A stretch of 64,000 nucleotides of DNA from Muribaculaceae bacterium (GTDB taxonomy: Bacteria > Bacillota > Clostridia > Lachnospirales > Lachnospiraceae): NCBI GenBank assembly GCA_023666425.1, contig JAMPCA010000001.1, positions 737,692-801,691 on the forward strand, read 5' to 3'. The notes under the pieces were generated by a model that saw only the letters and a program-made list of their open reading frames with translations, ran no database searches and had not been told where the DNA came from. Positions 3,810 through 41,581 of this stretch are shown here, in pieces. The translations under genes and the position numbers were made by a program. Within the stretch, counting starts at the first letter, position 1, and every line of letters starts with the position of its first letter.

Positions 3810-3811
3810 TA

Positions 3812-17645: not shown

Positions 17646-17647
17646 GC

Positions 17648-19804: not shown

Positions 19805-19826
19805 GGTGTCCTCCTTGCCATACAAA

Positions 19827-19850
19827 GAGTCCGGCAGAATTGCCGGACTC
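19827..19850 (-). terminator. Terminator after the pilus locus
   Basis: A perfect 10-bp stem GAGTCCGGCA/TGCCGGACTC with a four-base loop, followed on the minus strand by TTTGT. The T tract is short, so read-through into the ABC exporter genes is possible. Confidence 0.6.
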
Positions 19851-19860
19851 CGATGTCTGT

Positions 19861-22800
19861 TTAGTTCAGATTAAAGAGAGGTAAAAGCATAACCTCCGCA
19901 TTTGTTGTTTTGGTAGAGGTCGTTACGAAGCGCTTGCTCTTCGTGTAGGTCGCATAGGTTCCGATGGAGTAATCCGAGATTCCGTCTCCGTCTGTAACGT
20001 CCTCATAGGGCACATACATAATGTAGCGCACGCCCGCATCCGTATCGTCCGCGTCCACTGAATAATAGGGCTGCAACGTCTCCTTGCCCTCGAGAGGAAC
20101 GATATCCCCAATGACAGAATTGCCCTCAGCATCCTTCTCCAGCTTCCGGACAATGACATTGTTCTCGTCGATGGCCGTCCCGTCATGGTAGAGACGCATA
20201 TAGCACTTTTTGTTTGTCAGCTGGTTCGTGCCGCCTTTATCGTGGATGGAAAATTCAATCCCCACCATCACTCTTCCATTGACAGTAACCACACGGCTGT
20301 CCAGTGCATTCTTTACCGGACCAGGCGTTCCTGCCGCGTTCTCATCATCCGGATCCGGAGTACTCTGGTACTGATAGCCGTCGTAATCCAGATAAAGCAC
20401 GCTGGTTCCGCTCGCAGCTGTCGTATCCGCATTGTCGATTGCCGCATAAGGCTGCGACTCCGGCTGGCGGTAGGCCGCAATCATGGTATTGACAAACAGC
20501 TTGACCTCATCGTCCGGCATGACTGTTCCCGTCGTATGCCCGCTTCCCGTATAAGTAATATTTCCCTTGTTGTAGATAAAGAAGCTGTTACGGCAATCCT
20601 GATCCCTTGCAGAATACAGATTGGTGGAGGTGTTTGTTCCATTCCCCTTTCCACTCTCCTTTAAGTATGCCCGTACCTGGTCGTCCTTTGTATCCGAGAG
20701 ATTGAACCATACATTGACGTCACCCTCCTCCAGATACTCGAGATCGAGCTGGTAATACTGCAGATGGGATGTCAGCACCTCAATCGTATCGTTGATATGG
20801 TACGGATAAGTGGTAATCTGCCCATTGTTCGTCATCTTGACATAGCTGGTCACCGCTCCATTCGTCCAGCCGTTTCGATTAAGCCAGTTGTCCTTTGTTA
20901 CACGGTCTGTCTTATAGTTCGTATAATTCACCAGCGTTCGCAGATACAGAAAATGGCTGTTATCTGTCCAGTCGTTTACATATGTCCCCCAAAAACGGGA
21001 ATATACCGTATCTCCGTCCACCTCCTGCGACAGCTGCTTAAAATACTGCCTGTAGCTTCCGTTGTTCAGGTTACTCTGGGAAGCAAAGGTCACGGTCGTA
21101 CCGTTCGATTTCACATCGGTATAGGACTTCACGTAGGTACCGTCGCTTTGCCTGTTATAGTAAGCGCGGCGCTGTCCCGCCATCGTCCGGAGCCATGAGG
21201 TATAATTATTATATAAGTAGCTGTGCCCGGTATAGTAGGCATCCGAACCGTAAACCGTATCGTGGCTGAAAATGACTGACTTTCCCTGTGCGATGTAATC
21301 CTTAAGCCCCTCCGCAAATACCTGATTTTCTGTGAACTGGCAGCTGTCAATAAAACCAAACACCAGCATATCATAATTTGATAAAAACGCTTCCCAGTTG
21401 GCCAGTTTCACCTCGTAGGACTCATTCGTATCAAACAGTTTGCGCCAGTCGCTGTTGTACAGGAACTGGATAGTCACATCAAACTCATTCACCGGATCCA
21501 GATAGGTTCTAAACTTTTTCGCCGTCGCATTGTCCATGGTACTGGTAGTCTCCGGCGCTCCATCTTTATCGTACGCTATGCGTCTCGTGTCAAAGGCCGA
21601 ATAACTCTCCCCGTTCTTTACAACAATACGCTCTTTTGTAAAGGAGGTTCCCGTCTTGTCTGTCCTCATATCCTTCGACAGATTCATCTGCAGGACTAGG
21701 ATGCCATCCTTCTCGCTGTTGTAGACCGCCGTGTAGTCAATGGCGCTCGAGCGCAGGTAGTTGTTTGTGCGCGACTGCACCTCAAGCTTCCACGGTATGA
21801 TTCCCTGCTGGGAAGAAGGAATCACGCGCGTCGCATAATATTCCGTATTTGCCTGCAGCGCAAAGCTGGCCGACGGATTCTTGGGATTCGTCGTTCCCAG
21901 CAGATTACGGTTCGCATCGTAAATATTCATCCCGAGAGCCGGCTCTGAGGTGTCAACCGTGTGCGGGCTTTCCGGCTCCGCATCGTTCATATTATAGACC
22001 TCATTGAGCTGTTTCAGAGAACCCGAGTACACACCGTCGCCGTCCAGATCCAGATTCAGGTAGACATTGTAGGTGTCCGCCGCATTTCCATAGATATAGA
22101 AGTGGTACTCAAGTACCGCCGTATTATCGCTCTCCTTTGCATGGTAAACCTCGTGATCGATGACGCCTCTCGCCATTCCTCCGCCATAATTCTTATCTAC
22201 CTCCGAGTAGGTGTACTCGATCGGATAGCCCTCTTCATAGAACTCGAGACGGCAGATATTCTGGGAAATCAGCGACTTCATTTTTGCGCTCTCGATTCGG
22301 TCATGCACAAACAGATTTTCATGCCCGGTGCCACTGTAGGTCAAAAGATCGTAAATTTTTGAGTCGCGGTCCACCTTCGACGTATCCACCTGACTGCCCG
22401 CATAGAGCCCCTCGTCCACTACAATCGGCTTGCCTGCCCGCAGGAAATCCTCACACTCCAAAAGCTTCTTTAGCGTAATATCGTTGCCTGCATAGCGCAT
22501 ATCCAGATTCGTGGACAGCCTAATTCCCTCAATCTGTCTATTCGGATTGTCTGTCAGCGTTCCACCGATCGACGTATAAACCAGATTTCCAAGATCCACG
22601 CCATAGGAATATTTATTGTAGCCATTCTTTCCGTTCGACGCATCCTGCTTGGCGCCAAAAATGATCATATCGTACTTCGCAATCAGATCGTCCGAGCTCT
22701 CGGTCGTCAGGCGCACAAGATTTCCCGTATCATCCAGCTCCCCATAGTCGTAGCGCCCCGTGCTTCCGATAAACTCCCACGTCGGCATCGTCGTGACCTC

Positions 22801-24525
22801 AATCAGACTGGAATCCTCCAGCCAGCTGTTATTCTTGCTGGACTTGGGGTGATACCATGGGAACAGAGCCTGGTAATAGTCCTTCCAGCCATCCGAGCCG
22901 TAAATATACTGGTCGCAGGGCTGCACCTCTAAAATTCTAAGCTTCGGCGTATAGGAGGGCTGCTCCAGAATAAATTCAATCGCATCAAGGAAGGACATAT
23001 TGCTCCCGTCCCTGTCCACGAAAGCGTCAGCGGTGGAATTGTTCGTCCAAAGACCGTCTTTATCCATACCGCTCTCTGTGATATTGCCTCCGGTCAAAAG
23101 CTGCTGGAGTGTCGCCTGATCGCCCTGATAGGTAAAAATCTTGTCAAATACATCGTTTCCGCCGCCGCCAATATTGTAATAGCGGACGTCATCAATCAGG
23201 CAGGCGCCTGTCTCCGGGTGAAACAGGAAAGGCGTCGTGGTATTCGTGTAGGTCGAGCCCTTATAAGTCCACGGGTCACAGGACTCCGAGATTCCCCAGA
23301 AACGCGAGGTAGGATAAGCGCCCTCCTTTCCTCCCTTCGTGTACTCCACCTTTGTCGTACCGTCCGCACCGGTATAGGGCTGCAGATAAGCGCCGAAATA
23401 ATTCCAGAAGGCCTGCGGCTTATACATCAGCACCATATACAAAAGCTTGTGGCAATTGTACTCCTTCCGGTCATTATTGCCCGCAAACATATTCGCCTTG
23501 TCGAGCATCAGCGCCGCCGGCTTGTCGGACGCCATTCTTTTTGTAATCTGTATGACCTCATTGTAGGTCAGGTCATTCCCCGGATCCCAGAACGAGGGAC
23601 CGTTCTTGGGAATTTTAAAGGTCTTGTTTCCGTTGCTGTCCTCTGTATAGTCCGTCGTATCGCCGTTATTATTCAGCTGGTAATAGATATTCGCAATTCC
23701 AGTATAGTTTCCCGAGCCCGGATGAATGTAGATCAAATCCGCATCATCAATCAGATTCAGATTCGATTCCAGCTCCGACGGCGTCATGGTAATGACCTGC
23801 GACTGGAAGCTCGTAGACTTTGCCCCATTAAAGGTTCTCTGTATGAACTCGTCCTTGTGCTTATACTCGATATAGCTGTAGGCAAAGAGATCCCCATTGG
23901 GCTTGCGCACAAAATTGCCGTCCTCCGAGGCTATCCAGCGGTATTCGCCCGCTCCCTCGCCCACATAGCTGTAGTTCTCTCCGCTCTTACTAAAGCCGCC
24001 GCCTTCCTCCTGCACATAGTAGCCCTTCTGGCTGTAATCGTTGCTATATTCTGTCCGCCACTGTCCGTAATTTGTCCACTTGTCGGTATAATTCAGATCA
24101 TCCCTGGTCTTAAACCGGTCATCCCATGTGTTGATTGTGAGGACAGAATTCACCGGAATCTGGTCGTAAAAGGCATACTGCTTCTTATCCGAGATATCAT
24201 AGACACTGCCCAGGGCAGACTGAAAATCTCCTTTTGCCGCCTCGGTATATTTTGCCAGCTCCATATCCACCGGCTCACAGCCCGGAATAAAATACCCAAA
24301 CTGCGCTTCCTCATGGCTGGGAACAATCTCTAAGACCGTAAAGGGATTGCCCTCTGTGCCAAGCTCTGCGTTTTTGTCCGTCTTAGGCTTTAACTCCGAA
24401 GGTTTTGTCGTCCCGATATTCAGTGCCGTACCCAGCGCTTCAAAGGCTCCGCTCTGATACAGAAGCCCTCCCAGCAGACAAATACACAGTACAATTGATA
24501 TAATTTTAATATTCCTGCGCTTCAT
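19861..24525 (-). CDS. Very large exported DUF5057-type protein of the pilus locus
   Basis: A 1554-residue protein with an N-terminal membrane anchor or signal (basic MKRRNIK, hydrophobic 8-24) and no sortase motif. I read it as a DUF5057-type protein. By eye, three segments repeat one alpha/beta pattern: a leading strand (VLEIVPS at 64, RILEVQP at 530, VTIQFLYN at 1017), then a hydrophobic strand (ADLIYIH at 262, YDMIIFG at 618, YDMLVFG at 1051), then G-K/D-K-P-type turns followed by a strand ending in Asp (335-347, 698-708, 1081-1093). This resembles class I amidotransferase-like folds without a visible catalytic triad. A calcium-loop-like DLDGDG is at 826-831. It is the last gene of the pilus locus. 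A surface or tip role is inferred from position. Confidence 0.7.
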   Translation of the reverse strand: MKRRNIKIISIVLCICLLGGLLYQSGAFEALGTALNIGTTKPSELKPKTDKNAELGTEGNPFTVLEIVPSHEEAQFGYFIPGCEPVDMELAKYTEAAKGDFQSALGSVYDISDKKQYAFYDQIPVNSVLTINTWDDRFKTRDDLNYTDKWTNYGQWRTEYSNDYSQKGYYVQEEGGGFSKSGENYSYVGEGAGEYRWIASEDGNFVRKPNGDLFAYSYIEYKHKDEFIQRTFNGAKSTSFQSQVITMTPSELESNLNLIDDADLIYIHPGSGNYTGIANIYYQLNNNGDTTDYTEDSNGNKTFKIPKNGPSFWDPGNDLTYNEVIQITKRMASDKPAALMLDKANMFAGNNDRKEYNCHKLLYMVLMYKPQAFWNYFGAYLQPYTGADGTTKVEYTKGGKEGAYPTSRFWGISESCDPWTYKGSTYTNTTTPFLFHPETGACLIDDVRYYNIGGGGNDVFDKIFTYQGDQATLQQLLTGGNITESGMDKDGLWTNNSTADAFVDRDGSNMSFLDAIEFILEQPSYTPKLRILEVQPCDQYIYGSDGWKDYYQALFPWYHPKSSKNNSWLEDSSLIEVTTMPTWEFIGSTGRYDYGELDDTGNLVRLTTESSDDLIAKYDMIIFGAKQDASNGKNGYNKYSYGVDLGNLVYTSIGGTLTDNPNRQIEGIRLSTNLDMRYAGNDITLKKLLECEDFLRAGKPIVVDEGLYAGSQVDTSKVDRDSKIYDLLTYSGTGHENLFVHDRIESAKMKSLISQNICRLEFYEEGYPIEYTYSEVDKNYGGGMARGVIDHEVYHAKESDNTAVLEYHFYIYGNAADTYNVYLNLDLDGDGVYSGSLKQLNEVYNMNDAEPESPHTVDTSEPALGMNIYDANRNLLGTTNPKNPSASFALQANTEYYATRVIPSSQQGIIPWKLEVQSRTNNYLRSSAIDYTAVYNSEKDGILVLQMNLSKDMRTDKTGTSFTKERIVVKNGESYSAFDTRRIAYDKDGAPETTSTMDNATAKKFRTYLDPVNEFDVTIQFLYNSDWRKLFDTNESYEVKLANWEAFLSNYDMLVFGFIDSCQFTENQVFAEGLKDYIAQGKSVIFSHDTVYGSDAYYTGHSYLYNNYTSWLRTMAGQRRAYYNRQSDGTYVKSYTDVKSNGTTVTFASQSNLNNGSYRQYFKQLSQEVDGDTVYSRFWGTYVNDWTDNSHFLYLRTLVNYTNYKTDRVTKDNWLNRNGWTNGAVTSYVKMTNNGQITTYPYHINDTIEVLTSHLQYYQLDLEYLEEGDVNVWFNLSDTKDDQVRAYLKESGKGNGTNTSTNLYSARDQDCRNSFFIYNKGNITYTGSGHTTGTVMPDDEVKLFVNTMIAAYRQPESQPYAAIDNADTTAASGTSVLYLDYDGYQYQSTPDPDDENAAGTPGPVKNALDSRVVTVNGRVMVGIEFSIHDKGGTNQLTNKKCYMRLYHDGTAIDENNVIVRKLEKDAEGNSVIGDIVPLEGKETLQPYYSVDADDTDAGVRYIMYVPYEDVTDGDGISDYSIGTYATYTKSKRFVTTSTKTTNAEVMLLPLFNLN

Positions 24526-24562
24526 TCCTCACACCTCTTCCTGCTTCCTGGATAAATCTTTC

Positions 24563-26740
24563 CTAATCCGGCATCCAGCCCCGCCATGTAGAATTGTAAG
24601 TATAGCCCTTCCCATCGTACACAACATGATACTTACTGTTTTTGGTTCCATAGACAATCTGCTTACCGCTCACGGTAAAGAGCACGGCTGTCTCGCTGCC
24701 CGACGGCGTAGAAAGCTGGCTGCTGTAACCCGTCAGATCCGTCGCTCTCGGAAGGAACAGGTTCGTCCGGTTTCCATTTCCATCTACGAACACGTTCGCC
24801 TCCCCCGGCACAAAGGTCAGGTCGCAGGAAATTCCATCCAGCACGTTCCCTTCCGCCGTGCGCACGCCAAAGTGGAAGGTCTTGGACTGTGTCTGTCCCG
24901 AGGCCACCGTTACAGAGGCCTCCTCCCCGCTGATTGCAAGGTATATACTGGAGCGGCTGCCCGCATCGCCATCCGCCAGACAGAGCGTCCCTCCATCCAG
25001 ATTTTCTATGACAAAGGACATGGTATCCGTCTCTCCCCTCGTCACCGGAAAACGCGTCTGGCTTCCGGTCACACCGGCAAGCCTTAATCTTACCGGCTCA
25101 AAAGAAAGGATCACACCGGGCCCAGGCTGGCTTTTTCCGGTCGTATCCGTGTAGAAGGTAGTCAGATTGACCGATACCTTCTTACTATAATCCTGCACCC
25201 CGAGCTTTAGCTCATAACCATCTGTCTTCTCCAAAATCCGCACATCGGAATTGTCAGATGTAATGCTCCAGTCTGCCGCCTCCATGGGAACCCAGCTTCC
25301 GCCGCCCTTGTACATGACCTGAAGCTCCAGTTTTTTAGAACCCCCCCGGTTCGCGCGGGTCTGGGTAGACCCCATGGCGTCGTAAACAATATTATCCGTC
25401 GTATCCATAAGACGCACAGCCGTGATTTCCGCGCCCTCCTCCACAATCGAGGGCGTAAAGACAATATTGTCCACCTGCGCGGTCTGTACTTTTCCGTTCA
25501 GAGTATAGCCCACCACAAGCGTATATGACTTATTCACATAATCGGCCGGACGGCGCACCTTCACCTTCCAGCGCAGACTTGTAGACCCGCTCTCCTCCGG
25601 AATTTTCTCAAAGGTTGCCGTGACAGTACTTCCCGCCGCCACAAAAGGCATCCCCGCCATATCCACATCTTTTTCCAGATTGTTTCCGTTGGCCGCAAAA
25701 ACAGCCTCATAGATCTTGTGATTGTCCTCAGACTGGGGCTGCGGCTGGGTCAGCGTCGCACCGCCGTCAAAGGACTTGATATGTACGGTCGCGGTAGCAG
25801 AGATATACTTTGTGGTATCTCCCATCGCCGCATTGATACTGCTTAAGGACGTAGCCTCCACCGTTATGTCTCCGGTCACATTATCTCCCACCTTAATGAG
25901 CCCGGAATTGCGGCCGATGGACGCATCCACCCCCGCAGGCGACTTGACATTCCAGATAACCTGCACGCCGTTCTTCGTCTGGCCGTCTACCGTGGCGGAG
26001 ACACTGAACGGATTCGGCATGGATGTCCCCTGCCAGACATAAACATCCGCGGGCGTGATGGAAATTGCCGTAATCGACTGCTGGCGGTCTGCCTCCGCAT
26101 CCGTCTTGAAATAATCATCCGCACTGCCGTCCGCTTTTTTTACCACTTCATTGCGGAGAAGAAAGGTATTGCCCGTGGTATAACTCTTATCCATATTCTC
26201 AAAATCTACCTGAATATCCACGGCATTTTTGTCGATTAAATTGGTCAGATCTACGTTAAAATCCTTGATGAACTCTGAAAGTATCTCCGGATTCACCTTA
26301 TCTGCGGTCAGCGAGGATGTGCCGGAAGCGTCAAGGCTATAGGTTCTGTGACAGTAAAGAAGCTGGCTTCCCTCCTGATAGATATGGACAATGTCATACT
26401 GTCCCTGCACATAGCTTCCTCCGCCAATCTCCTTACGGTTATAGACAAAGAGATCCTTTCCCGTGAGCGTCGAGGGAGTTCCGCCTCCCCCGGGAAGTCC
26501 TCCCGCCGGGTCTGTCACGCTGCAGCCATGGCTCGCATTCACGATCAGCGACTGGAGCCGGGTCATCGTAAGCTGCGCCTCATTCTGCAGACTTGACTCC
26601 CTGCTTCCACGGTTGTAAATACCCACCGCACGGACGACAAACCCCATGCCAATGGCGAGGACAACCGCAAGGATCGTAATGGACACCAGAAGCTCCACCA
26701 GCGTAAATCCCATATGTTTTCTTTGTCTGTTTTCCCTCAT
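24563..26740 (-). CDS. Large minor pilin, PilW/GspJ-like, with Ig-like region
   Basis: About 725 residues from the ATG at 26740; a start six codons earlier is possible. The type III signal reads KHMG then FTLVELLVSITIL, so PilD would cut after the glycine and glutamate is at +5, as in standard prepilins. The next segment has the PilW/GspJ look (NEAQLTMTRLQSLIVNAS). From about residue 230 there is a bacterial Ig-like (BIG2-type) region beginning ITAISITPADVYVWQG, and more beta-rich sequence follows to the end. Usual PilW proteins are 200-350 residues, so this is greatly extended. It probably sits at the pilus tip complex with the other minor pilins. Confidence 0.72.
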   Translation of the reverse strand: MRENRQRKHMGFTLVELLVSITILAVVLAIGMGFVVRAVGIYNRGSRESSLQNEAQLTMTRLQSLIVNASHGCSVTDPAGGLPGGGGTPSTLTGKDLFVYNRKEIGGGSYVQGQYDIVHIYQEGSQLLYCHRTYSLDASGTSSLTADKVNPEILSEFIKDFNVDLTNLIDKNAVDIQVDFENMDKSYTTGNTFLLRNEVVKKADGSADDYFKTDAEADRQQSITAISITPADVYVWQGTSMPNPFSVSATVDGQTKNGVQVIWNVKSPAGVDASIGRNSGLIKVGDNVTGDITVEATSLSSINAAMGDTTKYISATATVHIKSFDGGATLTQPQPQSEDNHKIYEAVFAANGNNLEKDVDMAGMPFVAAGSTVTATFEKIPEESGSTSLRWKVKVRRPADYVNKSYTLVVGYTLNGKVQTAQVDNIVFTPSIVEEGAEITAVRLMDTTDNIVYDAMGSTQTRANRGGSKKLELQVMYKGGGSWVPMEAADWSITSDNSDVRILEKTDGYELKLGVQDYSKKVSVNLTTFYTDTTGKSQPGPGVILSFEPVRLRLAGVTGSQTRFPVTRGETDTMSFVIENLDGGTLCLADGDAGSRSSIYLAISGEEASVTVASGQTQSKTFHFGVRTAEGNVLDGISCDLTFVPGEANVFVDGNGNRTNLFLPRATDLTGYSSQLSTPSGSETAVLFTVSGKQIVYGTKNSKYHVVYDGKGYTYNSTWRGWMPD

Positions 26741-26770
26741 TCCTATCACTCCCACCATAAACAGCCAGAC

Positions 26771-27331
26771 CTACAGCTTTTGTTTATCATGCTTTCCGGT
26801 CTCCGGGTATAGTGTCAGCTCATATGTCGATTTCCCGTTGGAGACCGTAATCTTTGTACAGTATTCATTGCCGGACGCATAATTATAAACCGCGCTTCTG
26901 GAGCCGTCGTCATAGGTGCCGACGGTAACAGAACTGATCCGGTAGGTGAATGCTCCGCTTCCCCTGTTATAGCTTATGATCAGCGGCGTCGTCTTCACGT
27001 CATAGTCCGTTCCCGTTGTCGAGCCGGATGGCTTTGACTCAAATGTGACATCAAAATGGTCGCCCAGCACCACATCCTTACTGTAGGATGTGGAAATGAC
27101 ATAGCCGTTCGTGCTGTCATATTTCAGCTCCATCCATGCGTTGGCCTTTGCGAGCGCCTGCGCCCTTGTCTCGGAGAGAGCCGTGCTGATCTCGTCCGCC
27201 GCCTTGCGGCAATACCAGTCCGACTGGGAGAGCACAATGTTGACAACCCCCGTTGTCAGAAGCGCCATGATTGCAATCACAACGACCAGTTCAATTAGTG
27301 AAAAGCCTGCATTCTTTTTCAAATCCATCAC
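26771..27331 (-). CDS. Minor pilin, FimT/GspH-like
   Basis: A 186-residue prepilin-like protein. The N-terminus has KKNAG followed by FSLIELVVVIAIMAL, with glutamate at +5. The region after the helix (ADEISTALSETRAQALAKANAWMEL) matches the FimT/GspH pattern, where a short helix is followed by a beta domain. It lies between two larger minor pilins with very small gaps, consistent with an operon encoding a tip-initiating complex. Confidence 0.75.
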   Translation of the reverse strand: MMDLKKNAGFSLIELVVVIAIMALLTTGVVNIVLSQSDWYCRKAADEISTALSETRAQALAKANAWMELKYDSTNGYVISTSYSKDVVLGDHFDVTFESKPSGSTTGTDYDVKTTPLIISYNRGSGAFTYRISSVTVGTYDDGSRSAVYNYASGNEYCTKITVSNGKSTYELTLYPETGKHDKQKL

Positions 27332-27334
27332 CGC

Positions 27335-30923: not shown

Positions 30924-30944
30924 AGCCCGCTCCCTTCCGCACAG

Positions 30945-31718
30945 CTAACGCACTGTGCCAAAAATGTTCTCATTGCCCTTGATCACGGTACCTGCATCCG
31001 GCTTCTCATAAATCTTATCCGTACCGCCCAGATAGTACATATTTACGCCCAGATTGCCGACGATCAGTCCCGTCTCCGTGTCGTAGGTCATGGACATATC
31101 CGCAACATTGCGCCGGTTCCGGTTCGACATCAAACGTGCAAATACAGATTTCATGTCCGAGTAGTCCGATGTGAAATCATAACTGACCACCATGACAAAA
31201 AAAGTGTAATCGGGACATACGATCTGGCTCTCATCCAAAATGCCAAGATCCACACCCGTGGGGGCTGCCCCCGCTGCCTCTTCCGTCCCGGCAGAAGCAT
31301 CCGCAGACGCATCATCGGTGACTGCCACACTCCCGTCGGTGACTGCCGGAGCATTTAAGGAATACAAAAGATTCGCCGGATTGATCGTAATACTCGTAAC
31401 ATCAATGTCCGCCCCCTCCGTCAGATCCCTGGCATAAAGAACCACATCCTCCTCCCTGACGTTTGGGGGATATTTGTCAATAATCTCCGCAATCTGCTTC
31501 TCAAACAAATCTGTCTGCTGGGTGTAGGTGGAAAGATTTGCCTCCAGATCGCGCACCTGCTGAAGCTGGCCTGCCAGCACAGCATTCTCCGCCTCCAGTG
31601 TCGTCCTCTCCTCCTCAAGCTCTGGCCGAAGGAGAGCCACCACTACGATAAACACCAGAAGGCCGATGCCATCCAGCACCGCTAACATTATTCTCTTTGA
31701 GCTTCCACTCTTTTCCAT
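30945..31718 (-). CDS. PilO-like pilus assembly protein
   Basis: A 257-residue bitopic protein: short cytoplasmic part, one membrane helix (about 11-27, MLAVLDGIGLLVFIVVVAL), a coiled coil (about 30-90) and an extracytoplasmic domain. This plan and its place directly after the PilM-PilN gene match PilO, which links the inner assembly platform. An Ala/Ser/Asp/Thr-rich linker (about 126-150) interrupts the outer domain. Sequence similarity to PilO is too weak to call by eye alone; context carries the assignment. Confidence 0.6.
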   Translation of the reverse strand: MEKSGSSKRIMLAVLDGIGLLVFIVVVALLRPELEEERTTLEAENAVLAGQLQQVRDLEANLSTYTQQTDLFEKQIAEIIDKYPPNVREEDVVLYARDLTEGADIDVTSITINPANLLYSLNAPAVTDGSVAVTDDASADASAGTEEAAGAAPTGVDLGILDESQIVCPDYTFFVMVVSYDFTSDYSDMKSVFARLMSNRNRRNVADMSMTYDTETGLIVGNLGVNMYYLGGTDKIYEKPDAGTVIKGNENIFGTVR

Positions 31719-31727
31719 CGGTACCTC

Positions 31728-33419: not shown

Positions 33420-33475
33420 GTTTTCTCCAATCCTCTGTTTATGTTATATCTATATGAAATAGTACTCATTATTTT

Positions 33476-34234
33476 CTAATTCAACAGCCACTGCAGATAC
33501 GTCTGTATCCACACATCGCCCCAGAGGGCGGAAAGCATAATGCCAAGAGACAGATAGGGGCCTAATGCCAGCACATGCTCGGCGTCTGACACCTTCATGC
33601 GGATCAGGTGTATGACGGAGCCCGCCACGCAGCCGAGCAGAAACGCCAGAAGGATTTTTCTCCAGCCGAGCAGAAGCCCTGCCGCCGCCATGAGACGGAC
33701 GTCACCGCCGCCAATGGCTCTCCCTCCGCTAATCAGCAGGATTGCCTCTAAGGGTAAACTGACTGCCAAAAGACCGATCACATAATCGGGCCAGCTCTTC
33801 TCCAGCACCATATGTATCAGTCCCAGCAACAGTATAAACAGATTGATTCCAAAAGGAATCTCATAGGTTCGAAAATCTATTACAGTCAGCACAATGAGTG
33901 CAGACCCGAGCAGACAATAAATAACGCTTGTCCACGTCACGCCACAGACCAGAAAGACTATGACATACAGAATTCCGTTCGCCCCCTCGATTAGAGGGTA
34001 CTGAGCGGAAATTTTGGTTCTGCACTTGCGGCATCTTCCGCGAAGCGCAAGGTAGCTTGCGACCGGTATCATGTCATACCAGCTCAACTGGTAGCCGCAT
34101 TTCATACAGTGGGATCTCTCGGTAACTATCGTTTTCCCTTCCGGTATACGCAGGATGCACACATTCAGAAAGCTGCCGATAATCAGACCGTAGCAAAATG
34201 CGGCTATCAGTATAAAAATAAATGCTGGTTGCAT
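33476..34234 (-). CDS. pilD: Prepilin peptidase / N-methyltransferase
   Basis: Membrane aspartyl protease that cuts prepilins after the glycine of the type III signal and methylates the new N-terminus. 252 residues. The zinc-binding cysteine pairs C43/C46 and C68/C71 of the full-length, methylating type are present. The two catalytic aspartates are D120 (VIDFRTYEIP) and D178 (GGGDVRLM). Several membrane helices fill the rest. Its substrates are very likely the six prepilin-like proteins of this locus. A strong hairpin and 121 bases separate it from the upstream pilin gene. Confidence 0.92.
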   Translation of the reverse strand: MQPAFIFILIAAFCYGLIIGSFLNVCILRIPEGKTIVTERSHCMKCGYQLSWYDMIPVASYLALRGRCRKCRTKISAQYPLIEGANGILYVIVFLVCGVTWTSVIYCLLGSALIVLTVIDFRTYEIPFGINLFILLLGLIHMVLEKSWPDYVIGLLAVSLPLEAILLISGGRAIGGGDVRLMAAAGLLLGWRKILLAFLLGCVAGSVIHLIRMKVSDAEHVLALGPYLSLGIMLSALWGDVWIQTYLQWLLN

Positions 34235-34299
34235 GATAAATCCTTTCCAAAACAGTTCTTAGGCATATTCATGTAGGGACTCCTATGCCGTTATCATTT

Positions 34300-34328
34300 C
34301 TCTCCTGCGGGAATATCCCGCAGGAGAG
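34300..34328. repeat. 12-bp perfect hairpin between pilin and pilD
   Basis: CTCTCCTGCGGG and CCCGCAGGAGAG with a five-base loop. On the minus strand it is followed by AAATGA rather than a T tract. Its place after a highly expressed pilin suggests transcript stabilisation or partial termination that lowers expression of the machine genes. Confidence 0.6.
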
Positions 34329-34355
34329 GTATGTACAATTCTCGAATGCACAAGA

Positions 34356-34823
34356 TTACGTTGTAGGTGTGGCAGTAGGCCATGCGCCAACCACCTCGTA
34401 TGCCTGTCTGGTCGCATTGTATGTAACTGTTATCGTATAAGTCTGGGCTGAATGTGTCTTTGAGGACATTTTCACCGTGGTGCCAACCGTAGCCTCTACA
34501 TCTGCCTTTAACTTTGTAGCAGACGCTGGGAATGTCATAGCTCCAGTACTGCCAGTCAGTGTTATCGTAAACGAACCGCTCGTACCTGATACAGTACCCG
34601 CCTCTACATAGATGTCCTCCTGCGCCAGTGCAAGCTCAACTGCATGTGCAACCTCTGCCGCCGCAGACTCATCCTTCTGCACTCTTGATTTCTCCACATA
34701 ACGGAGCATTGCCGGAGCCAGCACTACCATCAGCACTGCCATGATGGCGATAACTACGATCAGCTCGACAAGCGAGAAACCTTTGTTGTTGCGCTTCTTT
34801 GTTTCTGTTACTTCCTTTTTCAT
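34356..34823 (-). CDS. Type IV pilin, copy 1 (likely major pilin)
   Basis: A 155-residue prepilin from the ATG at 34823, which follows AAAGGAGAAAAAGGT. The signal is NNKG then FSLVELIVVIAIMAVL with glutamate at +5. The N-terminal helix (about 14-55) is nearly identical to pilin copy 2, including AMLRYVEK-S-RVQKDESA. The beta domain differs and lacks cysteines. It has its own promoter (34904-34932) and a strong hairpin downstream, which suggests separate high expression and supports the major-pilin guess. Confidence 0.85.
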   Translation of the reverse strand: MKKEVTETKKRNNKGFSLVELIVVIAIMAVLMVVLAPAMLRYVEKSRVQKDESAAAEVAHAVELALAQEDIYVEAGTVSGTSGSFTITLTGSTGAMTFPASATKLKADVEATVGTTVKMSSKTHSAQTYTITVTYNATRQAYEVVGAWPTATPTT

Positions 34824-34903
34824 ACCTTTTTCTCCTTTTCTTTGAACTTTGATATGCATTTATCTTAAAAATCCCGCTCCCTACAAGCAGAATCTTTAAT
34901 TCA

Positions 34904-34932
34904 ATTATACACAAAAACCATCGTCATGTATA
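34904..34932 (-). promoter_or_regulatory. Promoter of pilin copy 1
   Basis: TATACA and a perfect TATAAT with a 17-base spacer on the minus strand, 81 bases before the pilin start. It lies downstream of the duplicated nuclease genes and would make the pilin independent of them. Confidence 0.5.
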
Positions 34933-34944
34933 GTCATATGTCAT

Positions 34945-34990
34945 CTATTGTAAAATTTCTATGACTTCTATTGTAATATCTCTATGACCT
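34945..34990 (-). repeat. Partial third-copy remnant at the 3' end of the nuclease tandem
   Basis: The final 23 bases of the nuclease gene (coding EVIEILQ and stop) occur twice in a row: 34968-34990 is the end of copy A and 34945-34967 repeats it with about three changes. This is what remains if another copy once followed and was removed by recombination. Confidence 0.7.
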
Positions 34991-35912
34991 CTTCACGGCT
35001 GATTCCCACCTCTTCCGCTATGGTGTCTATGTCACAGCCCTGCTGTTCCAGCTTAAATACTCTTTTCGTCAAATATTTCCCTCTTTCCAGACCCTCTTCT
35101 ATTCCTCTTTCCATGCCCTCTTCTATTCCTGCATATCGGAACATTTCCTCTCTCGAAAATGTTGCCACCGTCATATCGCACACCTCCTTTTTCTCGAACA
35201 GCTCCCGGAAAATCCCCCTCTCTTTTAAGAGCCTGCATACATCCGCCGCTGTCTCCAGACCCCCGGGTCTCTTATATGTGCTGTCATGCCCCGCCTGCAG
35301 GATATAGGTCAGGCTGTTGGCTGTCAGGGCATACCAGAACAGCTCTTCATCCCGGTATTTCTCAAAACGCCCCGGAATCCGGTTCTCCTCCAGATAGTCA
35401 CAGGTTTCTTCTCGGCTCATTACAAATTCATAGGCATGAACCGTAAGCTCCAGATCCGGTTCTGTATCACATGCCATGTAGGAATCTGACAGACGCATGA
35501 TCCGCTCTGTCTCTTCCGGCATCCTGCTGCGGTTTTTCACTCCGGTAAACACAACATAAAGCTTCGGCACTGCCAGCTCTACCATTTTGTTTCTGTAAAG
35601 CATATCCTCCGACCCGATCAGTCCCCGCAGGCCTGCCGTGATATATTCCAGCAGACGGTACGGGATATTGGGATTTGGCGACGCCTGCGCCTCTATCATA
35701 TAGTATATCACATGATCGGCCAGAATACCTAAATCATTTTCCTTCCTCCCGAAAATTACCGGCCTTACATCTGCCACCTGCACATCAGTGACGCTTCTTC
35801 CGCTCAAAAAGGATACCAGACGCTTTTTACTTTCCTCTGACTCAAATACCTTTGCAAAAAAGTGATCCTTTGCCTGCGCGTTTATCCCCGGCACATTCTG
35901 TTCTTTTTTCAA
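34968..35912 (-). CDS. Rpn-family recombination-promoting nuclease / putative transposase, copy A
   Basis: A 314-residue protein of the PD-(D/E)xK Rpn type (PDDEXK_2). The N-terminal nuclease core includes DHFFAKVFESEESKKRLVSFL (about 16-36) and NDLGILADHVIYYMIEAQ, which holds the presumed acidic residue and the E-x-Q pair. The C-terminus has the low-complexity linker GMERGIEEGLERGKY and a small helical domain ending EEVIEILQ. Translation starts at TTG, seven bases after GAGAGG. It lies 19 bases after copy B. The two proteins are identical over about the first 260 residues, so the duplication is recent. Rpn proteins act in RecA-independent recombination; a role in pili is not known. Confidence 0.85.
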   Translation of the reverse strand: MKKEQNVPGINAQAKDHFFAKVFESEESKKRLVSFLSGRSVTDVQVADVRPVIFGRKENDLGILADHVIYYMIEAQASPNPNIPYRLLEYITAGLRGLIGSEDMLYRNKMVELAVPKLYVVFTGVKNRSRMPEETERIMRLSDSYMACDTEPDLELTVHAYEFVMSREETCDYLEENRIPGRFEKYRDEELFWYALTANSLTYILQAGHDSTYKRPGGLETAADVCRLLKERGIFRELFEKKEVCDMTVATFSREEMFRYAGIEEGMERGIEEGLERGKYLTKRVFKLEQQGCDIDTIAEEVGISREEVIEILQ

Positions 35913-35931
35913 ATACTTTCCTCTCTCGTAT

Positions 35932-36888
35932 CTATTGTAATATTTCTATAACTTCTTCACGGCTGATCCCTACCTTTTCCGCTATGGTGTCTATGTCACA
36001 GCCCTGCTGTTCCAGCTTAAATATTCTTTTCGTCAAATATTTCCCTCTTTCCAGACCTTCCTCCAAGCCTCTTTCCATACCTCTTTCCATGCCCTCTTCT
36101 ATGCCTGCATATCGGAACATTTCCTCTCTCGAAAATGTTGCCACCGTCATATCGCACACCTCCTTTTTCTCGAACAGCTCCCGGAAAATCCCCCTCTCTT
36201 TTAAGAGCCTGCATACATCCGCCGCTGTCTCCAGACCCCCGGGTCTCTTATATGTGCTGTCATGCCCCGCCTGCAGGATATAGGTCAGGCTGTTGGCTGT
36301 CAGGGCATACCAGAACAGCTCTTCATCCCGGTATTTCTCAAAACGCCCCGGAATCCGGTTCTCCTCCAGATAGTCACAGGTTTCTTCTCGGCTCATTACA
36401 AATTCATAGGCATGAACCGTAAGCTCCAGATCCGGTTCTGTATCACATGCCATGTAGGAATCTGACAGACGCATGATCCGCTCTGTCTCTTCCGGCATCC
36501 TGCTGCGGTTTTTCACTCCGGTAAACACAACATAAAGCTTCGGCACTGCCAGCTCTACCATTTTGTTTCTGTAAAGCATATCCTCCGACCCGATCAGTCC
36601 CCGCAGGCCTGCCGTGATATATTCCAGCAGACGGTACGGGATATTGGGATTTGGCGACGCCTGCGCCTCTATCATATAGTATATCACATGATCGGCCAGA
36701 ATACCTAAATCATTTTCCTTCCTCCCGAAAATTACCGGCCTTACATCTGCCACCTGCACATCAGTGACGCTTCTTCCGCTCAAAAAGGATACCAGACGCT
36801 TTTTACTTTCCTCTGACTCAAATACCTTTGCAAAAAAGTGATCCTTTGCCTGCGCGTTTATCCCCGGCACATTCTGTTCTTTTTTCAA
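35932..36888 (-). CDS. Rpn-family recombination-promoting nuclease / putative transposase, copy B
   Basis: The upstream twin of copy A, 318 residues, also starting at TTG with GAGAGG seven bases before. It has one more four-residue unit in the linker (GMERGMERGLEEGLERGKY) and a few substitutions near the end (KRIF, AEKVG). The expected nuclease residues are the same as in copy A. Upstream it abuts a 46-base fragment of a third copy, and that fragment abuts the 3' end of pilin copy 2. The pair therefore sits between two pilin genes inside an otherwise uninterrupted pilus operon. No inverted repeats or DDE transposase signatures are present. Confidence 0.85.
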   Translation of the reverse strand: MKKEQNVPGINAQAKDHFFAKVFESEESKKRLVSFLSGRSVTDVQVADVRPVIFGRKENDLGILADHVIYYMIEAQASPNPNIPYRLLEYITAGLRGLIGSEDMLYRNKMVELAVPKLYVVFTGVKNRSRMPEETERIMRLSDSYMACDTEPDLELTVHAYEFVMSREETCDYLEENRIPGRFEKYRDEELFWYALTANSLTYILQAGHDSTYKRPGGLETAADVCRLLKERGIFRELFEKKEVCDMTVATFSREEMFRYAGIEEGMERGMERGLEEGLERGKYLTKRIFKLEQQGCDIDTIAEKVGISREEVIEILQ

Positions 36889-36892
36889 ATAC

Positions 36893-36938
36893 TTTCCTCT
36901 CTCGAAAATGCTGCCACCGTCATATCACACACTTCCTT
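36893..36938 (-). repeat. Partial third-copy remnant at the 5' side of the nuclease tandem
   Basis: This matches an internal part of the nuclease gene (coding KEVCDMTVA-FSREE) with three changes, then passes into the spacer and start of copy B at the 12-base string CGAGAGAGGAAA, which occurs both inside the gene and before its start codon. The junction looks like a deletion at this short match. It ends one base from the pilin stop codon. Confidence 0.75.
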
Positions 36939-36939
36939 A

Positions 36940-37419
36940 TCAGCTGACCGTCCAGTTGAGGTCGGGATCGGACGCGTTGGGTCTCACAATGTATGCACCC
37001 CTTGTACTGCTATACTCAAAAACTATGGTAAAGGTCTTACCTCTGTACTGCTGGGAACTAAAGGCAATCTTATCTCCCACGGTCGCACGGATATCCGTCT
37101 CAAGATTTCCGGCTGCAGCGGGGGCCGAATGACCGCCCGCACATGCTACCGCGATATTTGTGTTGTCCGCAACCGTCACGGTAATGGTATCGCCTCCCGC
37201 CTCGGTATACAGCTTATCGTCTGTCAACGCCAGTTCAATGGTTCTTACAACCTCCGAGACTGCGGACTCGTCCTTCTGCACCCTCGTCTTTTCCACATAG
37301 CGGAGCATCGCCGGCGCCAGCACTACCATCAACACTGCCATAATGGTAATCACCACTATTAACTCTACCAGCGAAAATCCCTTATTATTTTCCCTTTTTC
37401 CTGTCATAACCTCTCTCAT
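36940..37419 (-). CDS. Type IV pilin, copy 2
   Basis: A 159-residue prepilin. The signal is NNKG then FSLVELIVVITIMAVL with glutamate at +5, and the helix reads AMLRYVEK-T-RVQKDESA, nearly the same as pilin copy 1. The outer domain (about 60-159) is different, with a single cysteine in VACAGGHSAP. The start is the ATG two bases after the pilC stop; an in-frame ATG four codons later (37407) has GAGAGG close by and is an alternative. It follows pilC directly, so it is expressed with the machine genes. Confidence 0.82.
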   Translation of the reverse strand: MREVMTGKRENNKGFSLVELIVVITIMAVLMVVLAPAMLRYVEKTRVQKDESAVSEVVRTIELALTDDKLYTEAGGDTITVTVADNTNIAVACAGGHSAPAAAGNLETDIRATVGDKIAFSSQQYRGKTFTIVFEYSSTRGAYIVRPNASDPDLNWTVS

Positions 37420-37421
37420 TC

Positions 37422-38636
37422 CTACAGATTATCCATCTGGTTGTACATTGCGAGCATTGGCGCCATGACTGCACCGAGCAACAAAATTACCGCTCCTGCC
37501 AGCACCAGAATAATCATGGGCTCCATCGCGGCAAGAACTGTCTGGGTGGCCATCTCCACCTCCTCGTCGTAATAATCCGCGAGCTTGTTGAGCATTCCTT
37601 CCAGATCTCCGGTCTCCTCGCCGATTTTTGCCATATGCCCTACCATAGGTGGAAAAAGATCATCCCGAAGCAAAGGCTCCGAGAGCGGCACGCCGCGGAT
37701 CACCTCATCCCTCGTCTGTTCAAGCTTTTCTCTATATAAAAAGTTCGACATCGTACCCGCCGTAATCGCCAGTGCCTCCACCATGGGAAGGCCGGAGTAG
37801 ATTAAGGTGCTCAGGGTGCGGGAAAAATTCGACGCCGCCGTCTTTACCGTCAGTTTTCCAAAAATAGGAGCATTTTTACTGAGCTTGGCAAACAGGAGCT
37901 GCCCGGTGGGCGTCTTTTTAAAGGCTTTAATGCCAAACACCACCGCAAGCACAATGGCAATCAGGATATACCAGCGCTGCATCACAAAATCACTGGCCTT
38001 TACCACCGCAACAGTGAGCGCCGGAAGTTCAAAATCCATGGTCTCAAACATCTCCGTATACTTGGGAATAACAAAAGCCAGCATCACAACCACGACAATC
38101 ACTGCCACCAGTCCTACCATGATCGGATAAACAGCAGCTTTTTTCATAATGGCTTTCAGCTTTGCGCTCTTCTCAAAATGGGTCGCCATGCGGTCAAACG
38201 CCACATCCAGCTTACCGGAGGCCTCTCCCGCATTCACCATCTTCACCATAATGTCCGGAAACACCTTCGGATAAAGCGCCAGCGCATTCGCCAGCGTCTC
38301 GCCCTTGCCGATTTCCATTTTCACACCGCCAATCGCGGAAGCCATCGTCTTGTTCTCTGTCTGCTCCTCAAGCATAGCCAGAGAATCTATAATCGTGACG
38401 CCCGCATCGATCATGCTGATAAACTGCCTGCAGAATACGGAAAGATCCCGGGGCTTCACTGATCCCCCGATGCTGATGGAAACCTCCCTCGTAAGGAGGG
38501 AGGCCGGATTCACCTCCATAGGCGTCATTCCATCCGACCGCAGACTCTCGTATGCCGCTTCCAGCGAATCAATCGTAATATTTCCTTTTTTCTCCTTGCC
38601 AAACCTGTCTATGGCCTTGTAAGTAAATTCCGGCAC
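37422..38636 (-). CDS. pilC: Type IV pilus inner-membrane platform protein
   Basis: A 404-residue PilC/GspF-family protein. It opens with the typical MPEFTYKAIDRFGKEKKGNI. Two repeated cytoplasmic domains (about 70-190 and 270-390) each contain a GEASGKLD- or GEETGDLEG-type motif. Membrane helices follow at about 165-190, 215-235 and 370-395. It holds the extension and retraction ATPases in place. It lies between pilT and pilin copy 2 with gaps of 22 and 2 bases. Confidence 0.93.
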   Translation of the reverse strand: MPEFTYKAIDRFGKEKKGNITIDSLEAAYESLRSDGMTPMEVNPASLLTREVSISIGGSVKPRDLSVFCRQFISMIDAGVTIIDSLAMLEEQTENKTMASAIGGVKMEIGKGETLANALALYPKVFPDIMVKMVNAGEASGKLDVAFDRMATHFEKSAKLKAIMKKAAVYPIMVGLVAVIVVVVMLAFVIPKYTEMFETMDFELPALTVAVVKASDFVMQRWYILIAIVLAVVFGIKAFKKTPTGQLLFAKLSKNAPIFGKLTVKTAASNFSRTLSTLIYSGLPMVEALAITAGTMSNFLYREKLEQTRDEVIRGVPLSEPLLRDDLFPPMVGHMAKIGEETGDLEGMLNKLADYYDEEVEMATQTVLAAMEPMIILVLAGAVILLLGAVMAPMLAMYNQMDNL

Positions 38637-38658
38637 GGTATCTCCCTCTGTCTGTCAA

Positions 38659-39738
38659 TCAATAAAACATCGAAGTCTTTGAAATCATAGTGTTTTGATC
38701 CAGTGCAAACTGAATCGCCGTATCTCTTGTTATTATATTCTGCATGAGAATCTTGTATATCGTATCGTCCATGGTCTGCATTCCCTCCTTCTTGCCCGTC
38801 TGGAGCACGGAAGGAATCTGAAACGCCTTTCCCTCACGAATCAGGTTGCGGATCGCAGGATTGGCGAGGAGCACCTCAAAGGCAGCAATCCGGCCGCCGT
38901 CCACCTTGGGAAGAAGCTGCTGGGCAACCACTCCCTCGATCACCGAGGCGAGCTGCACACGAATCTGCTGCTGCTGGTGGGGCGGGAAAACGTCAATCAT
39001 ACGGTCGATAGCGTCCGCCGTGCTGTTGGTATGCAGGGTGGAGAACACGAGATGTCCGGTCTCCGCCGCCGTAATCGCGATAGAGATCGTATCCAGGTCA
39101 CGCATCTCTCCCACCAGAATCACATCCGGATCCTGCCGGAGTGCCGCACGCAGGGCATTGGCATAGCTTAGAGTATCAAGTCCAACCTCCCTCTGGTTCA
39201 CGATTGAGCGCTTATGCTTGTGAAGATACTCGATCGGATCCTCCAGAGTGATGATATTCTTTGCGTAATTCTCGGAGATAATATTGATCAGTGACGCCAG
39301 TGTGGTGGACTTTCCACTTCCGGTAGCTCCAGTGACCAGTACCAGTCCCCTCTTTTTGCGGGTCAGATCCACCACCGCCCTCGGCAGCCCAAGCTGTTCG
39401 GGAGCCGGAACCTCCACAGAGAGGATTCGAAGCGCAATGCCGTAAGTCCCCCTCTGTTTAAAGGTATTCACCCGGACTCTGGAAAATCCCGGGAAAGAGT
39501 ACGCAAAGTCCAGCTCTCCCATCTTCTCCAGCTCTTCCCACTGCTTGTCATCCATGATCGAGCGTGCCACCTGCTCTGTCTCTTCTGGTGACAGGCTGTG
39601 GTCTGACGCGGGAACGAGCTCTCCGTCCACCCGGATCATCAGCGGGCTCATGGGAGCCAGGTGTATATCGGATGCACGGCGTTCGCATGAATACTCCATA
39701 ATGTCCCGTGCCGAAATCTGTCCTGCAAGTAAATTCAT
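38659..39738 (-). CDS. pilT: Pilus retraction ATPase PilT
   Basis: A 359-residue hexameric ATPase that powers pilus retraction. Motifs: Walker A VTGATGSGKSTT (about 133), the Asp box ITLEDPIEYLH, Walker B DPDVILVGEMRD and the His box HLVFSTLHTNS. The PilT-type AIRNLIREGKAFQIPSVLQTG is also present near 290 and distinguishes it from PilB. Its presence predicts dynamic pili with twitching or DNA-uptake ability, although function is not shown by sequence. It lies 54 bases after pilB. Confidence 0.93.
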   Translation of the reverse strand: MNLLAGQISARDIMEYSCERRASDIHLAPMSPLMIRVDGELVPASDHSLSPEETEQVARSIMDDKQWEELEKMGELDFAYSFPGFSRVRVNTFKQRGTYGIALRILSVEVPAPEQLGLPRAVVDLTRKKRGLVLVTGATGSGKSTTLASLINIISENYAKNIITLEDPIEYLHKHKRSIVNQREVGLDTLSYANALRAALRQDPDVILVGEMRDLDTISIAITAAETGHLVFSTLHTNSTADAIDRMIDVFPPHQQQQIRVQLASVIEGVVAQQLLPKVDGGRIAAFEVLLANPAIRNLIREGKAFQIPSVLQTGKKEGMQTMDDTIYKILMQNIITRDTAIQFALDQNTMISKTSMFY

Positions 39739-39792
39739 ATTTATCCTCCATAATGGAACAATTCTATCCTGATTCTATAAAATCTCCACTTC

Positions 39793-41499
39793 CTAACCTG
39801 CATCATTGTCAAAGGATACCTTCATCATCTCTGAGAAGGAGGTAACGCCCTGGATCACCAGCGCAGAAGAACTCATACGCAGAGTGTGCATCCCTTCTGT
39901 GAGAGCCGCGTCCTTAATCTCCTCCGCCGTCCCCCTCTTGGAAATCACATGGCGGATCTTCGGTGTGATCGTCATAATCTCATAGACGCCGATTCGTCCT
40001 TTATAGCCGGTATTATTGCACTGGTCACAGCCGCAGGGTTCATAGATCGTCAACGGCTCATACGCAGGCCTTCCGAGAAGCTTTTTCTCCTCCTCATCCG
40101 CCTCGTGTACCTTCTTGCACACGGGACAAAGCCGTCTCACCAGACGCTGGGCGATTACACCCACCATGGAATCCGCAAGCAGATAGCTCTCGATTCCCAT
40201 ATCCATCAAACGCGTAAGCGTACTGGCAGAACTGTTGGTATGCAGCGTGCTCACCACCAGATGTCCGGTAATGGACGCCTGCACTGCGATTGCCGCTGTC
40301 TCGGTGTCTCGGATCTCTCCAATCATTATAATATCCGGATCCTGACGCAGAATGGAGCGGAGCGCTGACGCAAAGGTCAGATCCGCCTTCGTGTTGGTCT
40401 GCACCTGATTGATTCCGTCGATATTGGCCTCCACCGGATCCTCGACAGTGATAATATTTACGTCTTCTTTGTTCAGCTCACTGAGTGCCGTGTACAAAGT
40501 GGTAGACTTTCCGCTTCCGGTGGGTCCGGTCACAAGAATGATTCCATTCGGATTCTTTAGTATATTTTCAAACTGCCGCATCTCCTCGGGCGTAAAACCA
40601 AGCTCACTCTTATCCTTCGTCAGCATCTTCTTCTGGGCGAGACGCATAACACATTTCTCCCCGTATACTGTAGGAAGAATGGATGCACGGATATCGTACT
40701 CAACGCGATCTACGATATAAGTGATACGTCCGTCCTGCGGCTTACGCTTCTCGGAGATATCCATGCCGCCGATAATCTTAAGGCGGGCAATGATTGCCGG
40801 AAGCAGATGAATGTCATAGGTGAATTTTTCGTAGAGTGCACCGTCGATCCGGAAACGAATCCTCACGATACGCTCCAGTGCCTCAATATGTATATCGGAA
40901 GCCCTCTGCCTCGCGGCCTGCTCAATTGTCGAATTCACAATCTTGACAATCGGGGAATTGTTGACATTCTCATCGTAATCGTCGTCCTGGCTCGCTTCCT
41001 CAATGGCACGGCGCTCATCCGCATACTTCTGCGCCGCCTCCATATTCTCGTCGTCGCCAAAATACCGGTCGAGCGTCACCATAATCTCATTCGGCAGAGC
41101 CAGAACCGGCTCCACCTGCAGATTCGTAATGATCGTAAAGTCATCTATGGCAGCCATATCCATGGGATCTGCCATGGCAACCTCTACAATATTCATGTTC
41201 CCCTGAAAGAAGCCCAGTGGCACCATGCGGTTCTTACGCAAAATCGAAGAATTCACCAGAGTCATCATCTCCTCCGGAATCCGTACCCCAATCAGGGAGA
41301 CAATTCCGATATGCAGCTGATTCGACAGTGCGTGCATGATGGCATCATCTGTGGTAAAGCCAATCTCAACCAGCGTCTCTCCGATTCTTTTGCCCTTTTC
41401 TTTTGCAACAGCCAGCGCTTTCCCCAGCTGCTCATCTGTAATCAGACCCTCTTCAATCAGCATATCGCCGAGACGTTTTTTATTTCCCCGGAATGCCAT
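39793..41499 (-). CDS. pilB: Pilus extension ATPase PilB
   Basis: A 568-residue assembly ATPase. The N-terminal domain carries two consecutive RLG/RIG-x-x-L-type motifs (starting about residues 9 and 38), as in MshEN domains that bind cyclic di-GMP in related ATPases. The central and C-terminal parts have Walker A VTGPTGSGKSTT, the Asp box TVEDPVE, Walker B DPDIIMIGEIRD and the His box HLVVSTLHTNSS. A four-cysteine zinc site follows (CPVCKK, later CGCDQC). The start follows GGAGGGGATAGG. It is the first gene of the locus, behind its own promoter. Confidence 0.95.
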   Translation of the reverse strand: MAFRGNKKRLGDMLIEEGLITDEQLGKALAVAKEKGKRIGETLVEIGFTTDDAIMHALSNQLHIGIVSLIGVRIPEEMMTLVNSSILRKNRMVPLGFFQGNMNIVEVAMADPMDMAAIDDFTIITNLQVEPVLALPNEIMVTLDRYFGDDENMEAAQKYADERRAIEEASQDDDYDENVNNSPIVKIVNSTIEQAARQRASDIHIEALERIVRIRFRIDGALYEKFTYDIHLLPAIIARLKIIGGMDISEKRKPQDGRITYIVDRVEYDIRASILPTVYGEKCVMRLAQKKMLTKDKSELGFTPEEMRQFENILKNPNGIILVTGPTGSGKSTTLYTALSELNKEDVNIITVEDPVEANIDGINQVQTNTKADLTFASALRSILRQDPDIIMIGEIRDTETAAIAVQASITGHLVVSTLHTNSSASTLTRLMDMGIESYLLADSMVGVIAQRLVRRLCPVCKKVHEADEEEKKLLGRPAYEPLTIYEPCGCDQCNNTGYKGRIGVYEIMTITPKIRHVISKRGTAEEIKDAALTEGMHTLRMSSSALVIQGVTSFSEMMKVSFDNDAG

Positions 41500-41553
41500 C
41501 CTATCCCCTCCGACGCGTTATGTTCTCATAGTTTACCCTTTGCTTCATTCTAT

Positions 41554-41581
41554 ATTATAGCACTTTTTACATGTAAATCAA
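41554..41581 (-). promoter_or_regulatory. Promoter of the pilus locus
   Basis: TTGATT and a perfect TATAAT with a 16-base spacer on the minus strand. The -10 box is 55 bases before pilB. The short leader leaves no room for a large riboswitch. Confidence 0.6.

Follow-up and report, generated by a model that had tools for sequence, protein, structure and literature searches.

A monoderm type IV pilus locus with a tapirin-related K-type minor pilin and a DUF5057 protein in the place of PilY1

Results

The stretch of DNA analyzed here (the window) is 64,000 nucleotides long and comes from contig JAMPCA010000001.1 of a 2.74-Mb, 98% complete genome deposited as Muribaculaceae bacterium and placed by GTDB in the Lachnospiraceae. 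Positions 19861 to 41499 of the window, on the minus strand, are a complete type IV pilus locus of the single-membrane (monoderm) type. The genes lie in the order pilB, pilT, pilC, a pilin gene, two Rpn-like open reading frames (ORFs), a second pilin gene, pilD, a PilM-PilN fusion gene, a PilO-like gene, four prepilin genes (encoding 401, 815, 186, and 731 amino acids [aa]), and a gene for a 1554-aa protein with a DUF5057 domain (the giant). PilB, PilT, PilC, PilD, PilM, PilN, and prepilins thus share one locus, which defines a type IVa pilus, and the locus is of a known type. Two of its large products, the 815-aa prepilin, which is related to tapirins, and the giant, a candidate tip effector, are the main subject here.

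The core genes, all on the minus strand, were identified by Pfam matches above cut-off unless stated otherwise. The extension ATPase PilB (39793 to 41499; 568 aa) matches T2SSE (457.9 bits) and MshEN (59.9 bits); the retraction ATPase PilT (38659 to 39738; 359 aa) is named from T2SSE (180.2 bits) and its place, and the platform protein PilC (37422 to 38636; 404 aa) matches T2SSF in two stretches (184.1 bits). The pilins PilA2 (36940 to 37419; 159 aa) and PilA1 (34356 to 34859; 167 aa) match N_methyl at 33.9 and 37.2 bits. The prepilin peptidase PilD (33476 to 34234; 252 aa) matches A24_N_bact (115.3 bits) and Peptidase_A24 (58.9 bits), and the PilM-PilN fusion (31728 to 33419; 563 aa), a single ORF, matches PilM_2 (41.8 bits) and PilN (25.7 bits). 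The 257-aa protein encoded at 30945 to 31718 has no match in Pfam (E ≤ 0.1) or NCBIfam (E ≤ 1) and is called PilO-like because of its place and its shape, with a single N-terminal hydrophobic segment.

The four minor pilins are labeled from NCBIfam matches below cut-off and from their position. The N_methyl matches of three of them, given here with the labels, are above the Pfam cut-off. They are a V/I-like protein (29718 to 30923; 401 aa; N_methyl, 22.5 bits; PilV, E of 2.2e-4; GspI, E of 6e-4), a K/X-like protein with a predicted tapirin-fold ectodomain (27335 to 29782; 815 aa), an H/FimT-like protein (26771 to 27331; 186 aa; N_methyl, 31.7 bits; GspH, E of 7.1e-6), and a W/J-like protein with a long extension (24563 to 26758; 731 aa; N_methyl, 28.4 bits). 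The giant (19861 to 24525; DUF5057, 130.6 bits) is not a pilin and ends in LFNLN; its candidacy as a tip effector is based on its conserved place and ending. The secretin family PF00263 was not found in the window's genome, while the same search matched 6 of 14 control genomes; PilP was not searched for. A first-pass annotation of the window had described a one-strand monoderm type IV pilus locus without a secretin, and this description holds: the pilus gene set is complete and lies entirely on the minus strand. Every gene it named is present, and the two Rpn-like ORFs between the pilin genes have to be added to its list.

The conservation of the locus was examined in two surveys. The first used 46 DUF5057 places in 200 genomes of the family (two further places, below cut-off, lie outside this set); across them, the gene order hardly varies: pilB-pilT-pilC-pilin(s)-pilD-pilMN-pilO-401-815-186-731-DUF5057. 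Because the same order is found in many genera, it is not a matter of chance. At least 1 kb of upstream sequence is available for 42 of the 46 places, the others being L048, L057, and L071, which have no upstream sequence, and L077, which has no full gene. Of the five genes that precede the giant on the same strand, at least four are prepilin-like at 38 of the 42 places and at least one is prepilin-like at 41, and where there are at least three, the giant follows the preceding gene at a median distance of 21 bp. The second survey took the best 80 of 286 relatives, with loci from named records; 10 of these loci have too little upstream sequence, and in the other 70, the DUF5057 gene lies directly behind a prepilin gene in 66 and an 815-type gene lies upstream of it in 64. 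Direct adjacency fails in L141, L147, L162, and L167, the last of which has a 160-aa ORF between the two genes.

Co-occurrence was counted in the 200 family genomes. The PilM_2 family matches 151 of them, many via ~700-aa proteins that resemble another family, and therefore a profile of the PilM-PilN fusion was used as the pilus marker. DUF5057 is present in 44 genomes, the fusion in 66, and both in 43. The first-pass annotation had reasoned that its proposal would fail if the large genes were found mostly outside pilus loci; for the DUF5057 gene, the opposite is the case. The lone DUF5057 genome without the fusion, G025, has a 652-aa DUF5057 remnant (1879 to 3837 of locus L047) immediately after pilC, an arrangement that suggests loss of the intervening genes. 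These counts bear on an alternative in which the DUF5057 protein is secreted or wall associated, exported by the pilus machine or merely sharing its operon, and is never at the tip, with a ThuA-like core (see below) that would serve as a surface enzyme or a ligand-binding domain. A free secreted enzyme is expected more often outside pilus loci, whereas the giant accompanies the fusion gene in 43 of 44 genomes and directly follows the minor pilin genes in 66 of 70 loci of the second survey; a relation to ThuA in sequence was not found by hhalign. We consider this alternative unlikely.

A class-wide sample of 291 genomes has DUF5057 in 6 (one of them below cut-off), 3 from the same family and 3 from other families. 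The closest named relative of the window's giant, 96% identical, is from a metagenome-assembled genome (MAG) called Blautia sp., and the other named relatives among the best 80 of 286 are mostly from Lachnospiraceae, which was accordingly taken as the family. A locus of this kind also occurs in Lachnoclostridium phytofermentans, of which L135 is a strain. Genomes G039 and G166 each have two pilus loci, with a DUF5057 gene and a PilM-N match in each. Four loci of Lachnospiraceae MAGs (L102, L105, L110, and L139) have two DUF5057 genes, whole or in fragments, in tandem downstream of the minor pilin genes.

The N-terminus of the 815-aa protein is prepilin-like but does not match N_methyl (Pfam, E ≤ 1). 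Its leader is presumably cut at the break in ...NNRG-SSLAL, which leaves a mature protein without Glu5. In its model, a long, pilin-type N-terminal helix spans residues 23 to 96; the first-pass annotation had named N-termini without a pilin fold as a result that would refute it, and for the 815-aa protein this result was not obtained. It thus has the prepilin-type leader, the long N-terminal helix, and the lack of Glu5 that are expected of a K-type minor pilin, the missing Glu5 being given as the rule for this type in an excerpt of PMC7541494. The GspK profile NF037980 matches 6 of 62 members of the 815-type at E ≤ 0.01 (best, 0.0015), and the window protein has no match.

The ectodomain of the 815-aa protein combines a predicted tapirin C-terminal fold, found via re-alignment over Foldseek's top 1000 matches, with profile homology to tapirins. 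Tapirins (NCBIfam NF051896; PDB 4wa0, 6n2b, and 6n2c), which a paper on them reportedly calls "structurally unique" in its title, share with it this predicted ectodomain fold and profile homology, and their genes, like the 815-aa gene, occupy the slot after the V/I-type minor pilin gene in a type IV pilus locus. They differ from it in that the structural alignments have 8 to 12% identity and in that the nine tapirin loci compared have no DUF5057 match. Based on these results, we conclude that a relation of the 815-aa protein to tapirins is well supported. As far as the literature was searched, tapirins were not found described as K-type pilins or tied to type IV pili, and within that literature the tapirin-fold K-type pilin as a general component of these loci is new.

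According to the available part of PMC9933333, tapirins attach Caldicellulosiruptor to lignocellulose, so the relation points to carbohydrate binding. This argues against an alternative in which the 815-aa and 1554-aa proteins start assembly (priming) or stop retraction, their size being structural and adhesion being left to other parts of the pilus. In its favor, a complex of PilY1 and minor pilins primes extension in Myxococcus and is a proposed cork, as stated in the portion of PMC7541494 that was available. Priming and adhesion are not mutually exclusive, and as a full account of the two proteins this alternative is improbable.

The 815-aa protein also resembles PilX/GspK and ComZ of Thermus thermophilus, bulky subunits with a leader lacking Glu5. 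Like ComZ, for which this is described in an excerpt of PMC6561018, it has a predicted beta-solenoid inserted before the last strand. In ComZ, the solenoid is a proposed DNA receptor, and by this likeness the pilus of the window could be a DNA uptake (competence) pilus, which we regard as highly improbable.

The giant has its DUF5057 domain at residues 681 to 1089, and in Pfam (E ≤ 1) it matches DUF5057 only, with neither T4P_PilY1 nor a ThuA domain. By eye, the full-length relatives begin with a hydrophobic segment, and there is no prepilin leader. The model covers residues 515 to 1554, and the alignment (A2) holds the window copy and 65 of 74 full-length relatives. The modeled part consists of alpha/beta and beta-sandwich parts, with nothing like the modified beta-propeller of the PilC/PilY1 C-terminus among the 50 structural matches listed, and its core matches the ThuA fold (PDB 4pxy and 4jqs) via re-alignment of the Foldseek matches. 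Searching the PDB with the giant's sequence profile gave no match up to an E of 1. Known adhesin domains were sought with Pfam in 23 giants and rejected as candidates: all 23 contain DUF5057, one also has Listeria-Bacteroides repeats, and one matches a low-complexity family. The C-terminal ending is conserved as L-F-x-L-[polar].

Like PilC/PilY1, the giant is large, is not a pilin, begins with an export-like segment of its own, and has its gene beside those for four minor pilins; unlike PilC/PilY1, it has no T4P_PilY1 domain and is predicted to have an alpha/beta, ThuA-like core with beta-sandwiches. PilY1, described there as extremely large, is said in an excerpt of PMC9934059 to be absent in monoderms. 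Our own search with the PilY1 profile matched none of the 200 family genomes and is uninformative because none of the 14 controls matched either. DUF5057 was not found in the literature searched, and as far as that literature goes, it is new that a giant that is not a pilin, and whose ending is conserved, stands in the place of PilY1.

The 731-aa W/J-type pilin has 54 recognized orthologues of 166 to 1145 aa, 32 of which are shorter than 250 aa. Its extension has no Pfam match, and eight large W/J-type pilins have nothing convincing in Pfam besides N_methyl. Judged from these sequences, the long extension is an optional module among relatives. Modular pilins are reported as numerous in the available text of PMC8179133. 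In Streptococcus sanguinis, which like the window's organism has a monoderm type IV pilus with large minor pilins, the large modular minor pilins PilB and PilC are modeled at the tip (excerpts of PMC8179133 and PMC9934059), and PilABC, which have vWA and lectin modules, take the place of HIJK (an excerpt of PMC10191384), whereas the window has a full HIJK-like set and a non-pilin giant.

The two Rpn-family nuclease-like ORFs lie inside the locus and are probably not part of the pilus. Copy 1 (35932 to 36888, minus strand; 318 aa) and copy 2 (34968 to 35912, minus strand; 314 aa) are 97.6% identical in DNA, with unequal numbers of C-terminal repeats; one of the two was scanned in NCBIfam, with TIGR01784 matching at 31.4 bits, below its cut-off of 52.1. 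The close relative L183 has just a shorter remnant at this position, and in the more distant relative L184 the two pilin matches lie 93 bp apart, which suggests that the pair was inserted and duplicated recently. A 46-nt stretch common to both ORFs has a third copy (93%) just upstream of copy 1 (36893 to 36938), perhaps the remnant of another Rpn copy. Promoter-like sites, identified by consensus, precede pilB (41554 to 41581, minus strand; extended -10) and the downstream pilin gene (34904 to 34932, minus strand), with equal scores of 10 of 12 consensus matches; the region has 14 such sites, a number within chance (shuffles, mean of 10.0 and standard deviation of 3.9). The one main promoter read by the first-pass annotation is accordingly no more than a possibility. 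Two ORFs that we take to be ABC-exporter-like (15864 to 19825) start 35 bp behind the giant, and ORFs of the same sizes are present behind the giant in L092 and not in L093.

Discussion

We propose that this single-membrane, Lachnospiraceae-type bacterium uses the locus to make a retractable type IVa pilus, with an elaborate tip complex in which the giant docks on the minor pilins and binds a surface, and we hold this to be the probable interpretation. It is based on genes and predicted folds, namely, the gene set, its order, the co-occurrence, the predicted tapirin fold, the profile homology, and the C-terminal endings; tip location, docking, adhesion, and ligand are inferred from these. PilB, PilT, PilC, PilM-N, PilO, and PilD would build and retract a fiber of the major pilin or pilins, and the V/I-, K-, H-, and W/J-like minor pilins would form the priming and tip complex, with the bulky K-type subunit on top. 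The K subunit would be a pilin head with an inserted tapirin-like beta-solenoid, its last strand, with the conserved YxNWxK ending, returning to the head in the manner described for ComZ. The giant may be exported separately, given its N-terminal hydrophobic segment and the lack of a prepilin leader, and would dock on the minor-pilin tip through its C-terminal beta-sandwich and L-F-x-L-[polar] ending, in the way of PilY1 in two-membrane bacteria. The repeated alpha/beta domains of the giant would project from the tip and, together with the solenoid of the K subunit, bind to a surface or a polysaccharide, after which PilT could pull the cell along.

Several observations weigh against this proposal. 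The giant has no PilY1 domain. The 815-aa protein matches the tapirin NCBIfam equivalog weakly, at 20.7 bits, where the cut-off is 600. When Foldseek matches of the giant are ranked by E-value, the 50 listed are mostly peptidylarginine deiminases and other beta-sandwich proteins, with no ThuA, and six ThuA proteins of relatives, compared with the giant's core, gave an hhalign probability of just 4.2 (reversed core, 0.1); ThuA-like proteins therefore resemble the giant in fold only, without Pfam or profile support. Of the endings in the second locus set, 25 of 83 do not fit the original C-terminal pattern, mostly through another last residue; both C-terminal patterns were framed after part of the data had been seen, and the last residues of the model have low confidence. 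The two locus sets overlap in species. Finally, 23 of the 66 genomes with the PilM-PilN fusion have no DUF5057, and therefore the pilus does not need the giant everywhere.

We inspected 14 loci from these 23 genomes. In four (L078, L079, L081, and L087), a 903- to 1024-aa protein with a hydrophobic N-terminus occupies the giant's slot; three of these proteins are matched by the N-terminal region of the giant's profile, and three have its C-terminal motif at their end. In two others, giant prepilins stand in place of DUF5057 (2475 aa at 4223 to 11650 of L082 and 1396 aa at 4070 to 8260 of L085). No counterpart was recognized in the remaining 8 of the 14, among which L088 ends at a contig end. 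Five more large proteins from loci without DUF5057 were searched in Pfam, and one has GLUG and N_methyl. The slot thus seems to be occupied by varying large proteins, which fits a tip effector and shows that the pilus can do without DUF5057.

The first-pass annotation had read the 731-, 815-, and 1554-aa products as one special tip or adhesive device. A tip role has gained support for the 815-aa protein, from its tapirin fold, and for the 1554-aa protein, from its PilY1-like place and conserved ending; the 731-aa protein, in contrast, varies too much in length among relatives for its size to belong to a fixed device. That annotation had overlooked the two Rpn-like ORFs, the C-terminal endings, and the relation to tapirins. 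A further-reaching version of our proposal, which we put forward tentatively, as possible rather than probable, is that the DUF5057 giant is a counterpart of PilY1 that arose independently in single-membrane gut bacteria, that its conserved ending docks on the tapirin-fold K-type pilin at the tip to make a retractable, polysaccharide-gripping device, and that tapirins, described as proteins for cellulose attachment in Caldicellulosiruptor, are one branch of a widespread class of tip subunits.

These results offer two testable identities for large proteins that lack annotation and are found repeatedly in the pilus loci of Lachnospiraceae-type bacteria. They place tapirins among the K-type pilus-tip subunits, which would explain their route to the surface, and they put in question the published view that a PilY1 effector has no place in monoderm pili. 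If the proposal is true, it identifies the proteins that many gut fermenters could use to hold on to fiber, mucus, or each other.

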